From an uncultured Clostridia bacterium (GTDB lineage Bacteria > Bacillota > Clostridia > Oscillospirales > Acutalibacteraceae): a stretch of 64,000 nt of DNA. The notes beneath the pieces were generated by a model, which did no database searches, had not been told where the DNA came from, and saw only the letters and a list, made by a program, of their open reading frames with translations. Position numbers and translations under genes: made by a program. Where the stretch lies: assembly GCA_947598155.1 (NCBI GenBank), contig CANQFC010000005.1:1-64000 (forward strand). Direction: 5' to 3'. Positions within the stretch are counted from its first letter, which is position 1; every line of letters starts with the position of its first letter. Shown in pieces: positions 17,364-21,056 of the stretch.

Positions 17364-17455
17364 ATAACTTAGGCAAGAGGTGTCCCCGCCTCCTGAGGCG
17401 GGTTACGTTTTCGGAACAGCGGGGATTTTGTCTTCCTCTGAATTGGATTTTATTA
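17364..17455 (+). repeat. Dispersed border repeat, left-part copy R5
   Basis: Starts ATAACTTAGGCAAG and keeps the CCCGCCTC/GAGGCGGG hairpin, the 'TTCGGAA' block, 'CAGCGGGGATTTTGTCTT' and 'CTCTGAATT'. The right end is missing. It forms most of the leader of the following gene. Confidence 0.75.
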
Positions 17456-17472
17456 CGTGCGAGGTGATAAAA

Positions 17473-18984
17473 ATGAAAAAGGCGATGCGATATGCTGTTT
17501 CTCTTTTCACCGTGATTGCGGTTGCTTTGCCGATTATGTGCTGCCCGGTCAGCGCGGCAGATAATTTCAATATCATTACAATGCGTCCCGGCGTTAACAA
17601 TAACAGCTTTGACAACAGTGAAAGCGATTTTATAGGGGAAAACGAGAAAAGCAAGTACTATGTTACGGCTATTGAGATGAATAGGCTGACCGAAGGTGAA
17701 AGCGAGGACGTAAAAAACCTTATACTTTCGCAGGCCCTTTCAAAGTTTGACGGGGCAGGTTACGGGATTTCGGCTACGATGGCGCTTGCATATACGGGCA
17801 GAATTGACATTTCACAATCAAATTACTACTCGGTAAATCTCAAAGAGGACTCCTTTTTTAAGAAGAGAATAAATTATTATCAGCTCGCTCAGTACTGTGA
17901 AAATAAAGCTCCCGCCGTAACAAAGGCGGTATCGGACGGAAAAATATCAGAGGATTCTCTGAAACAGATAGTCGAATATGCAAAAAGGGGAACGCCTTAT
18001 CTTATTACCTTCAGAACGAAAAATATTACTCATACATTGGTTGTCTGCGGATATGAATTCGGAAACGGCGGCACGCACATAGTTCATCTTTTGGACTGCG
18101 ATAAAAAAGACGGCTTTCTGTATTTGTGCGTGTCGGCAGGGTATAATTCGTGGCATTTTGAAAATTCGCCTTACGAGGCGAAGGAAATTACCGATTTGTA
18201 TTTTTCAACGTTGGACGCTTTTTCGCCTTTTAGCTTTAAAGAAGAAAACGACGCCGTTTATTCAACAGTAAGCAGCTCCTCGGCAGTCGATACCGTTTGC
18301 GCCGGTATGTCCTCAAGCTTTACGCTTACAAATTCGGAGGGCAAAACTCTGACGTTTGACAATGGCGAAATTACGGGCGATATTGACGCCGATATTCTCA
18401 AATATACATCGTATTCAAGCGAAACGCTCAGCTCCAAGGTCGTTTTCACAATAGAGGACTCTGACGAATACACTGTTCAAAATAACGATGAGGAAATTGA
18501 TTTGACGGTAGCGGGCGATAACGGACTTTTTTTCACGGCGCAGGGCAAAAATATTAAAACGGTACTCGCTCAGGAGGGCGTTACAACGATTGAGGGCGAA
18601 AATATGGAATATTCGGTCAACGTCCTTTCCGATGAAGAAAACGTAGATATGTTAAACGTCTGCGGCACGGACCAAAACAAAGTTACGTTTACCGTAAAAG
18701 AAGGAGTCACGCTGTCGGACGCGGACAGCGGTAAGATACACGCCTCAATAATTTCTTACGGTCAGATGTATGAAACCGATTTTGAAATAAATCACGGCGA
18801 CTTCAGCGTTTATTATTCGGACGTAGTTAAGACGAACATTGTCAGCGGCAAAGGCTCTCCCGTGGCTAAAGGCGTTATTTTGGCTTTTACGGCGGCCGTA
18901 TTTACCGCAACGGTCGTTTATACCGTTAAAAAGCGCGTAAATAAGGGCGGTTCATCAAAAAAAGGCGGTGAAAAAAATGGGTAA
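17473..18984 (+). CDS. Secreted, membrane-anchored papain-like (C39-like) protein lacking the catalytic cysteine
   Basis: The start at 17473 follows GAGGTG by seven bases; the track's upstream extension is repeat R5 sequence. A signal peptide ends near 'CPVSAAD', and a C-terminal helix ('GVILAFTAAVFTATVVYTV') with a KKR tail anchors it. Residues about 85-210 resemble a papain-like C39-type fold: 'GAGYGISATMALAYTG' sits where relatives have a Gly-Ser-Cys-Tyr-Gly motif, 'INYYQLAQY' follows, then 'ITHTLVVCGYEF' (His) and 'HLLDCDK' (Asp). The Cys position is Gly here. The later half, about 250 residues, is a beta-rich extracellular region. It is translationally coupled to murT. The fold assignment is from motif memory. 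Confidence 0.6.
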   Translation: MKKAMRYAVSLFTVIAVALPIMCCPVSAADNFNIITMRPGVNNNSFDNSESDFIGENEKSKYYVTAIEMNRLTEGESEDVKNLILSQALSKFDGAGYGISATMALAYTGRIDISQSNYYSVNLKEDSFFKKRINYYQLAQYCENKAPAVTKAVSDGKISEDSLKQIVEYAKRGTPYLITFRTKNITHTLVVCGYEFGNGGTHIVHLLDCDKKDGFLYLCVSAGYNSWHFENSPYEAKEITDLYFSTLDAFSPFSFKEENDAVYSTVSSSSAVDTVCAGMSSSFTLTNSEGKTLTFDNGEITGDIDADILKYTSYSSETLSSKVVFTIEDSDEYTVQNNDEEIDLTVAGDNGLFFTAQGKNIKTVLAQEGVTTIEGENMEYSVNVLSDEENVDMLNVCGTDQNKVTFTVKEGVTLSDADSGKIHASIISYGQMYETDFEINHGDFSVYYSDVVKTNIVSGKGSPVAKGVILAFTAAVFTATVVYTVKKRVNKGGSSKKGGEKNG

Positions 18985-20368
18985 ATTGCGTTTTTTGATT
19001 TCAATAATAGTCGGAAAAATTGTTTACGCAATCGGCAAGCCGTTCGGCAAATCTACAAATTTGCCGGGAATTATTATGCTTAAAATTTGTCCCGATGCGC
19101 TTGCCCGCTTTAAAATGCCCGAAAAAACCGTTTGCGTAACGGGCACTAACGGAAAAACGGGTACGTCTAACCTGTTGACGCATATTATTCGGAGCAGCGG
19201 CAAAACGGTGCTTAACAATTCAAAGGGGTCGAATATGGCGCCGGGGCTTGTTTCGGCGCTTGTAACGGATTCGGATTTTTCGGGGAAAATTAAGTCGGAC
19301 GTCGCTGTCCTGGAGGTGGACGAGCGTTCGTCTCAGTTTATCTATACACGCTTTACTCCCGACATTATTCTCTGCACAAACCTTTTCAGGGATTCAATAA
19401 TGAGGAACGGTCACAGTGAATTTATATTTGACAAAATAAACGATTACCTTTCAAAAGATACGACGCTCGTTTTGAACGGAAACGACGGCATATCGGGGCT
19501 TTTAGGCGAAAATGTGTGCGAAAGAGTGTTCTTTTCCGTTGAAAGGACAGAACGCAGTACGGAAAAGTGCGAGGACACGGTATGCGATTTAATTGCCTGC
19601 CCCAAATGCCACAAAAAACTTGATTACGAGTATTATCATTATAACCACATAGGCCGCCCCGTGTGCAAAGAGTGCGGCTTTGCACTGCCCGAAAGCAGTT
19701 TTACCGCGACCGACGTTGATTTTGAAAACGGCACGTTCCGAGTAATCGGAAAGAACGGCGAAAATATGATTCTCCCGTTCCAAAAGGGCAATTTTTTCAA
19801 TGTGTTCAATATCACGGGCGCAGTTGCCGTTTGCCGTCTTTTAGGCGTAAGCGAGGAGGTTATCGCGGGCAGTACGCAGGACCTTTCCTCAAAAACGGGC
19901 AGGTTTGACGATGAAAAATTCGGCGGCGCCGAGATAATTTCTATGCTTTCAAAAAATCAAAATCCCATTTCCTGTTCACAGAGCCTTAAATATCTTGACG
20001 GAGCGGACGGCGAAAAGGACGTTGTATTGCTTATAACCGACTCGAACGACGCCGTTCACGGCCATGAGGACATTTCGTGGCTTTATGATACTGATTTTTC
20101 ACCGCTTAAAAGTGAAAGCGTTAAAAACATTTACATCGGCGGCTCCCGCTGTTACGATACCGCCGCCTGTCTTGAAATTAAAGGGGTAGACGTAAATAAG
20201 CTAAAGCTGTTTACCGATTATTCACATCTCTGCCGCGACCTATGCGAAAATGTTTCCGAAAACAGAAAAACAGTCGTTTATTTTGAACTTTACGCGACGA
20301 GAATCGTGAAAATGATTAAAGAAAATATGACGGAAAGGGCGGTAAAAATCGGTGAAAATCGTAATTGA
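18977..20368 (+). CDS. murT: Lipid II isoglutaminyl synthase, MurT subunit (Mur-ligase family)
   Basis: ATP-dependent Mur-ligase-like subunit that, with GatD, amidates D-glutamate of lipid II to D-isoglutamine. The P-loop is 'VTGTNGKTGTSNLL' near residue 55. A Cys4 zinc ribbon ('CPKCHKKL' ... 'CKECG') is inserted near residues 205-235, as in MurT. The C-terminal domain has the MurT-specific 'DISWLYDTDF' block with the Asp that assists the amidotransferase. ATG 18977 is preferred (GGCGGTG seven bases upstream) over GTG 18968. It overlaps both neighbours, forming an operon with gatD. Confidence 0.9.
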   Translation: MGKLRFLISIIVGKIVYAIGKPFGKSTNLPGIIMLKICPDALARFKMPEKTVCVTGTNGKTGTSNLLTHIIRSSGKTVLNNSKGSNMAPGLVSALVTDSDFSGKIKSDVAVLEVDERSSQFIYTRFTPDIILCTNLFRDSIMRNGHSEFIFDKINDYLSKDTTLVLNGNDGISGLLGENVCERVFFSVERTERSTEKCEDTVCDLIACPKCHKKLDYEYYHYNHIGRPVCKECGFALPESSFTATDVDFENGTFRVIGKNGENMILPFQKGNFFNVFNITGAVAVCRLLGVSEEVIAGSTQDLSSKTGRFDDEKFGGAEIISMLSKNQNPISCSQSLKYLDGADGEKDVVLLITDSNDAVHGHEDISWLYDTDFSPLKSESVKNIYIGGSRCYDTAACLEIKGVDVNKLKLFTDYSHLCRDLCENVSENRKTVVYFELYATRIVKMIKENMTERAVKIGENRN

Positions 20369-21056
20369 AATTCTTTATCCCGAATTTAACAATCTTTTCG
20401 GCGACAGGGGAAATGCGGAATACCTAAAAGCAAGGCTCGAAAGGGCGGGCAGAGAGGCGGAAATAATCGAAACATATATGTTTTCGGAGCCGAATTTTGT
20501 AAACGGAAAGGCCGATATTTTGCTTATAGGTCCCTGCACGGAAAAATCACAGCTGACAGAGCTTTCGGAGCTTAAAAAATATGCCGAGGCTTTAAAGAGC
20601 CGAATTGAAAACGGCGGCGTTACTTTGGCGACAGGAAACGCTTTTGAGCTTTTCGGAAAATATATTGAGAATCCCAAAGGCGAAAAAACGGAGTGTCTGG
20701 GCTTTTTTCCGTATTACGCAAAGCAGTTTTCGCGTCTTCGTTTTAACGATAACGCGGTCGGCGACTTTAACGGAATGAAAATAACGGGCTTTAAAAATCT
20801 GTTAAGCCACTCATACGGGGAAAATCCATATCCTTTTCTTGAAATGCAAAAGGGAATAGGTATGAATAAGGAGACGAAGGCGGAGGGAGTCCATAAAAAC
20901 AATTTCTTTGCTACCTATCACACCGGGCCCATTCTTCCTTTGAATCCCGATTTTACGTCATATTTGATAAAACTGTGCGACGAAAGCTTTGACGGCGAGC
21001 CGTTATCTTTTGAAAAAACGGCATACGATATGCGGATTAAAGAGCTTTTGGGCTGA
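20352..21056 (+). CDS. gatD: GatD-like glutamine amidotransferase subunit, catalytic residues replaced
   Basis: Class I amidotransferase-like partner of MurT; the GTG start overlaps murT by 17 bases. Homology to GatD is clear: 'LFGDRGNAEYL' at the N-terminus, 'LLIGPCTEKSQ', 'ITGFKN' and 'TYHTGPILP' near the C-terminus. Compared with S. aureus GatD from memory, the nucleophile elbow that reads 'ICGGYQFLGK' there reads 'ATGNAFELFGK' here, putting Gly where the catalytic Cys94 belongs. 'TYLHGPILP' reads 'TYHTGPILP', so the catalytic His position is Thr with a His one residue earlier. Glutaminase activity is therefore doubtful. Family membership is secure; activity is not. Confidence 0.8.
   Translation: MKIVIEILYPEFNNLFGDRGNAEYLKARLERAGREAEIIETYMFSEPNFVNGKADILLIGPCTEKSQLTELSELKKYAEALKSRIENGGVTLATGNAFELFGKYIENPKGEKTECLGFFPYYAKQFSRLRFNDNAVGDFNGMKITGFKNLLSHSYGENPYPFLEMQKGIGMNKETKAEGVHKNNFFATYHTGPILPLNPDFTSYLIKLCDESFDGEPLSFEKTAYDMRIKELLG

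Follow-up and report, generated by a model that had tools for sequence, protein, structure and literature searches.

Introduction

What becomes of a MurT-GatD pair when its GatD subunit can no longer split glutamine? For several Gram-positive pathogens D-Glu amidation by MurT-GatD is essential, and it is a drug target; the question is raised by two neighbouring genes in the window, the 64,000-nucleotide stretch of clostridial DNA analysed here. These genes, termed murT* and gatD* below, resemble those of the lipid II isoglutaminyl synthases of S. aureus (6gs2), S. pneumoniae (6fqb) and S. pyogenes (9sq9) in gene order, fold and zinc ribbon, and share with them the ATP, Mg and acceptor residues of a Mur ligase and a GATase-like partner. 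However, the window pair lacks Cys94 and His189 of canonical GatD together with the surrounding Glu-Asn-His, and its MurT has two residues inserted into the KNP loop and an altered loop at residues 135-143. The S. aureus structure paper calls Cys94, His189 and MurT Asp349 highly conserved, and we found no paper in the open-access literature that describes a Cys-less MurT-GatD family.

The natural glutaminase-dead MurT-GatD variant described here is new, and it is widespread, more so than was stated in a preliminary description of this locus made from its letters. That description anticipated neither a large, old subfamily with diagnostic changes in MurT nor the connections with ectB and with a second murE that are reported below.

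The MurT-GatD pair of the window

Both reading frames are intact, and murT* lies directly upstream of gatD* with an overlap of 17 bp (Table 1). A phmmer comparison with solved structures matched the GatD* protein to S. aureus GatD over its full length (E = 3e-20) and also aligned it to the S. pneumoniae and S. pyogenes proteins (3e-20 to 4e-16 over the three species), bearing out the initial proposal that the frame aligns with GatD along its whole length. MurT* matches S. aureus MurT with an E value of 4e-50. Pfam families were assigned above their cut-offs in both proteins (PF07685 in GatD*, PF08353 and PF08245 in MurT*), and an AlphaFold model of GatD* (pLDDT 91.5) superposes, with a TM score of 0.88, on the GatD chain of the S. 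aureus GatD/MurT complex. Both proteins fall far below the cut-offs of the NCBIfam equivalog models, with GatD* scoring 77.5 bits (cut-off 450) and MurT* 188.6 bits (cut-off 800).

Table 1. Positions in the window of the two genes and of the protein features discussed in the text.
Feature	Coordinates	Strand	Basis
gatD*, GatD-like subunit (234 aa, GTG start, glutaminase residues lost)	20352..21056	+	S. aureus GatD alignment, PF07685, model
murT*, Mur-ligase-like subunit (466 aa, GTG start)	18968..20368	+	S. aureus MurT alignment, PF08353 and PF08245
Nucleophile-elbow motif ATGNAFELFGK (GatD* residues 93-103; Gly95 = S. aureus Cys94)	20628..20660	+	Alignments
Histidine-loop motif TYHTGPILP (GatD* residues 188-196; Thr191 = S. 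aureus His189)	20913..20939	+	Alignments
MurT* P-loop GTNGKT (K63 = S. pneumoniae K59)	19142..19159	+	K59 invariant in 175/175 MurTs of three classes
MurT* loop RDSIMRNGH (residues 141-149 = S. pneumoniae 135-143), GatD interface	19388..19414	+	Alignment; PMC6085368
MurT* four-Cys zinc ribbon (C211, C214, C233, C236)	19598..19675	+	Conserved in all classes
MurT* loop KNQNP (residues 329-333), two-residue insertion in canonical KNP	19952..19966	+	Alignment
MurT* Asp368 (= S. aureus D349, S. pneumoniae D355; canonical third triad residue)	20069..20071	+	Still Asp

A search of the organism's own genome found a single MurT and no further GatD or second MurT-GatD pair; its other GATase_3 match is a HisH-like protein. 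Redundancy with a canonical pair in the same genome is thus ruled out. The reading frame at 17380-18984, which shares 17 bp with the start of murT*, encodes a secreted or membrane-anchored protein for which neither Pfam (over cut-off) nor NCBIfam gave a match, and recurs upstream of murT in close relatives only.

Loss of the glutaminase site in GatD

In the phmmer alignment the S. aureus segments TICGGYQFLGK and TYLHGPILP are paired with ATGNAFELFGK and TYHTGPILP, respectively, which places Gly at Cys94 and Thr at His189, as first proposed; a wider alignment, of 199 distinct sequences in S. aureus numbering, places them identically. This alignment holds 68 canonical sequences, 114 with a TGN elbow and 14 with a TGT elbow. 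The search for a TGN subfamily among clostridial homologues that had been recommended therefore found one, with 114 distinct members that come from Clostridia and, in some cases, Bacilli.

Every canonical GatD carries Cys94, His189 and Glu147-Asn148-His149 (68/68 for each). By contrast, Cys94 and His189 are missing from all 114 members of the TGN set, where column 189 is occupied by Leu (64), Thr (23), Ile (23) or Ser (4), and Glu147-Asn148-His149 is absent as well. Other positions of the former active site are held nearly constant: Gly94 is found in 112/114, Asn95 and Glu63 in 114/114 each, Glu or Asp at position 98 in 113/114 and Arg128 in 111/114. The TGT set has lost Glu63, Glu98 and Arg128 in addition.

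It had been suggested that another Cys, such as that of the motif LIGPCTE, might occupy the active site, or that a different catalytic residue might be used. The LIGPCTE residue falls in the column of S. aureus Gly61, on the oxyanion strand, and is Cys in only 21 of the 114 relatives; as an unconserved residue it was rejected as the nucleophile. The wider proposal fares no better, given that this is the candidate Cys and that the canonical Glu147-Asn148-His149 is gone too. Loss of the glutaminase in gatD* is well supported. Judged by the defining residues Cys94 and His189, which were checked and are absent, gatD* should not be filed as a glutamine-hydrolysing isoglutaminyl synthase.

A separate case was seen in one genome (G071, locus L243), where a GatD of the canonical clade has lost its Cys (CIGGGYQ) and kept its His; this genome also has a canonical pair.

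An old and widespread subfamily under purifying selection

Among 59 related genomes, the genus of the window's organism yielded 13 GatDs, its own included, that are 65-100% identical to GatD*, and two more divergent ones that are about 41% identical. All 15 are without the Cys and the His, and the same TGN/SGN elbow is seen in distant GatDs from other families of the order. Comparison of gatD* with two relatives gave dN values of 0.08-0.10 and dS values of 1.5-2.2, for a dN/dS ratio of about 0.04-0.06. The gene is under strong purifying selection and is not decaying, since the ratio is about 0.06 and the trait is common to 114 TGN GatDs. A sequencing error is likewise discounted by this ratio and by the identical letters in genomes of the same genus.

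A scan of named genomes returned 319 relatives, of which 80 were kept. Nearly all are from metagenome assemblies of Clostridia, some are from Bacilli and Mollicutes, and the cultured Mogibacterium timidum and Neglectibacter timonensis are among those kept. In a sample of the class, MurT_C was present in 207 of 392 Clostridia genomes, and a Cys-less GatD in at least 45 of these 207 (45 of the 54 lowest-scoring, the ones checked further). A second form of Cys-less GatD occurs in Acetobacterium woodii. The murT gene is directly upstream of gatD in 86 of 90 loci, and no conserved third operon gene was found across the subfamily.

A MurT tree, built by a quick search with SH-aLRT support only and blind to the GatD letters, groups the partners according to GatD class. 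One clade (SH-aLRT 99) unites the partners of Cys-bearing GatDs, with two Cys-less exceptions inside it, another (100) holds most TGT partners, and TGN partners fall into two clades (99 and 94), the larger of which includes one TGT-like row. Because the partners are grouped in this way, the Cys-less trait is, as far as the tree can tell, old and stable.

Coupled changes in MurT

MurT had been described as intact, and its P-loop Lys, Asn85, Asp112/Glu113, four zinc Cys residues and Arg304 are indeed all present. Yet MurT* is not simply canonical, as it has the KNQNP insertion and an altered 135-143 loop. We compared 175 MurTs in S. pneumoniae numbering (61 canonical, 100 partners of TGN GatDs and 14 of TGT GatDs). 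The ATP, Mg and acceptor residues (K59, N85, D112, E113, D136, R140 and R304) and the zinc Cys residues are kept in every group. A two-residue insertion between K321 and N322, in the KNP loop, is found in 99/100 TGN partners and 14/14 TGT partners, as opposed to 0/61 canonical MurTs.

The loop at 135-143, situated at the interface with GatD and proposed to form the ammonia path (PMC6085368), changes from RDQLDRYGE in canonical proteins to RDSxxRN(G/A)H in TGN partners. D139 and E143 are present in 61/61 canonical MurTs, and N141 and H143 each in 95/100 TGN partners. The Mg-binding loop His of Mur ligases would correspond to Gln137 of MurT; this position differs from that of the TGN His143, for which we make no claim of such a role.

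Asp355, the counterpart of the S. aureus triad residue D349, whose change to Asn severely reduced activity (PMC6113224), is Asp in 61/61 canonical MurTs. Among TGN partners it is represented by Asn (44), Asp (33) and Glu (10), and among TGT partners by Asn (14). The negative gate of MurT is mostly kept in TGN partners, with D201 in 97/100 and Asp or Glu at position 361 in 98/100.

Links to ectB, to group-B walls and to a second murE

In eight loci from three lineages, the gene next after gatD* is ectB, for diaminobutyrate aminotransferase; NF006733 was matched over its cut-off, as was TIGR02407 in two of three tested. No ectoine genes were seen beside ectB in these eight loci. Only 8 of the 392 genomes in the class sample have ectB, and four of the eight have Cys-less pairs, while a fifth has a canonical MurT and a very divergent one (Fisher p = 0.009 or 0.001, uncorrected for kinship). 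In three of these genomes ectB adjoins a second murE (L226:5675-8432, L227:4347-7121 and L228:4384-7114), which suggests that 2,4-diaminobutyrate occupies stem position 3 in some Clostridia. A diamino acid is thus somehow connected to the Cys-less pairs, either on D-Glu or at stem position 3. As a general explanation ectB fails for the window, because the gene is absent from the organism's own genome.

Other genes were seen in this survey. Proteins of the ATPgrasp_ST family (PF14397), possibly a second wall ligase, lie near ectB or murT-gatD* (L225:8070-9086 and L228:10818-11852, family checked), and two further genes, at L229:3037-4080 and immediately ahead of murT in L106, are ATPgrasp_ST-like by resemblance. 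Two Clostridia genomes (L231, L232) have ectB-like genes, unrelated to MurT, between very large ORFs that look megasynthase-like by eye.

Two genomes with Cys-less pairs bear on the chemistry of the wall. The RnfC of genome G138 is identical at 432/432 residues to chain C of PDB 9eri, which we take to be the A. woodii Rnf complex and the genome hence to be A. woodii; G404 is presumably E. limosum. The walls of both species are of group B, in which the alpha-carboxyl of D-Glu2, the target of MurT-GatD, bears an amino acid. A Eubacterium wall is listed as B2alpha (PMC11382707). The Cys-less pairs of A. woodii and G404 adjoin an mnmA-like gene and glmM, and in A. woodii also glmS, and the MurE of each reads DNPA in place of DNPR. 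We found no paper that names an enzyme for the group-B branch step. The likeness to these branch formers lies in the shared alpha-carboxyl and the Cys-less pairs; unlike them, the window's organism has a main MurE of the mDAP type (DNPR).

Its genome also encodes a second, divergent murE without DNPR (contig C6, L279:7811-9319), outside the window and unlinked to murT*-gatD*, which by eye resembles the ectB-linked murE. Of 36 genomes in the genus, 14 combine the second murE with any MurT-GatD, 2 have the second murE alone, 2 have MurT-GatD alone, and 18 have neither (Fisher p = 4e-6, from draft genomes and uncorrected for kinship). Both genomes with gatD* and no second murE have ectB adjoining gatD*. 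This distribution suggests that MurT-GatD works on walls in which the third residue is an alternative one. One genome (G009) combines the second murE with a canonical pair, suggesting that Cys-less and canonical pairs are interchangeable in the genus, which would favour amidation there. As the canonical pair sits at a different locus, positional replacement was rejected and functional exchange alone is suggested.

Proposed function

Because the glutamine-splitting site is lost, the nitrogen, as ammonia or as a whole amino acid, must come from elsewhere. The pair is probably still an amide ligase for the alpha-carboxylate of lipid II. We propose that MurT* would bind ATP and Mg and convert the D-Glu2 alpha-carboxylate of the lipid-linked precursor of the wall into an activated acyl phosphate, open to attack by an amine, most likely free ammonia. 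GatD*, unable to hydrolyse glutamine, would be a required partner of MurT*, with its former active-site pocket (the invariant Glu63, Asn95 and Glu98 and the retained Arg128) acting as part of a structural subunit and taking in the amine from solution. With ammonia the product would be D-isoglutamine, as for canonical MurT-GatD. We infer complex formation, the lipid II substrate, the ammonia donor and the role of the pocket from the comparisons above and from the S. aureus work below. An ammonia-dependent lipid II amidase is the simplest reading, since ligase and partner are kept and the glutaminase is lost, and we consider that a glutaminase-dead pair making D-isoglutamine from free ammonia has about an even chance of being correct.

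Many members come from the rumen and the gut, which are rich in ammonia, and this was counted in favour of ammonia. So were the loss of Cys94 and His189 beside invariant ATP, Mg and acceptor residues in MurT, the purifying selection together with the superposition of the model on complexed GatD, the largely kept negative gate and the lack of a second GatD in the genome, and the canonical pair of G009 that accompanies the same second murE as if the two types were exchangeable. A laboratory mutant of S. aureus GatD, C94G, has the same substitution beside an intact ligase partner; it lost glutamine-dependent activity and kept NH3-dependent amidation at pH 8.5, with MurT still requiring GatD (PMC3266927). 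Free ammonia, one of the options raised by the preliminary description, is therefore the leading one. The mutant carries one engineered substitution, whereas the natural proteins combine many changes that go together across the two subunits. Because C94G was inactive with ammonia at pH 7.5 (PMC3266927), which counts against ammonia, the natural pair would need a better intake than the mutant, and GatD Glu63 and Glu98 with the MurT gate residues D201 and D361 could serve it.

The retained Arg128, which holds the glutamine carboxylate in the canonical enzyme, and the two new invariant acidic residues would fit an amino acid better than ammonia, and the eight ectB loci and the wall type of A. woodii suggest a diamino acid. 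The serious rival, possible if rather unlikely, is that MurT*-GatD* places an amino acid such as 2,4-diaminobutyrate, lysine, ornithine or glycine on the D-Glu2 alpha-carboxyl as a branch of the group-B type, in which case Arg128 would bind the carboxylate and Glu63 and Glu98 the amines. Of the options in the preliminary description, a task other than lipid II amidation would survive in this form. The Cys-less pairs of A. woodii and G404 with their DNPA-type MurE, the rarity of ectB and its enrichment with Cys-less pairs, and the MurT loop changes at the amine entry all agree with such a ligase. However, the window's genome has neither ectB nor a main MurE of another type than mDAP, G009 has a canonical pair in the same setting, and ectB beside the second murE may place diaminobutyrate at stem position 3 rather than on D-Glu; moreover, the TGT set has lost Glu63, Glu98 and Arg128, so one pocket model cannot serve both sets. 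For the Cys-less pairs as a whole, we regard as doubtful the view that an amidotransferase, through loss of its glutaminase and reshaping of the amine entry, gave rise to them as group-B branch ligases for 2,4-diaminobutyrate, ornithine or lysine.

A role outside lipid II, with the pair decaying or turned to a regulatory or scaffold function, would accord with its absence from 20 of the 36 genus genomes searched, which makes it dispensable in some. This is very improbable, because dN/dS is low, the frames are intact at almost every locus, the catalytic residues of MurT do not vary and conservation extends through the family. Disfavoured to much the same degree is a glutaminase restored through a different nucleophile in GatD*. 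Arg128, the glutamine-capturing residue, and the invariant new Glu63, Asn95 and Glu98 could be read in its support, but no Cys or Ser nucleophile is conserved, neither His189 nor Glu147-Asn148-His149 is kept, most MurT partners have a residue other than Asp at position 355, and C94S was inactive in S. aureus (PMC6113224).

Implications

Members of the Cys-less family, which is large and extends to dozens of anaerobic and gut bacteria, are likely annotated as isoglutaminyl synthases, although their use of glutamine should be impossible. Through their pattern of loss and retention, they separate the residues that serve the glutaminase from those that serve the ligase. The Cys-less pairs are also a candidate for how group-B walls acquire their branch.
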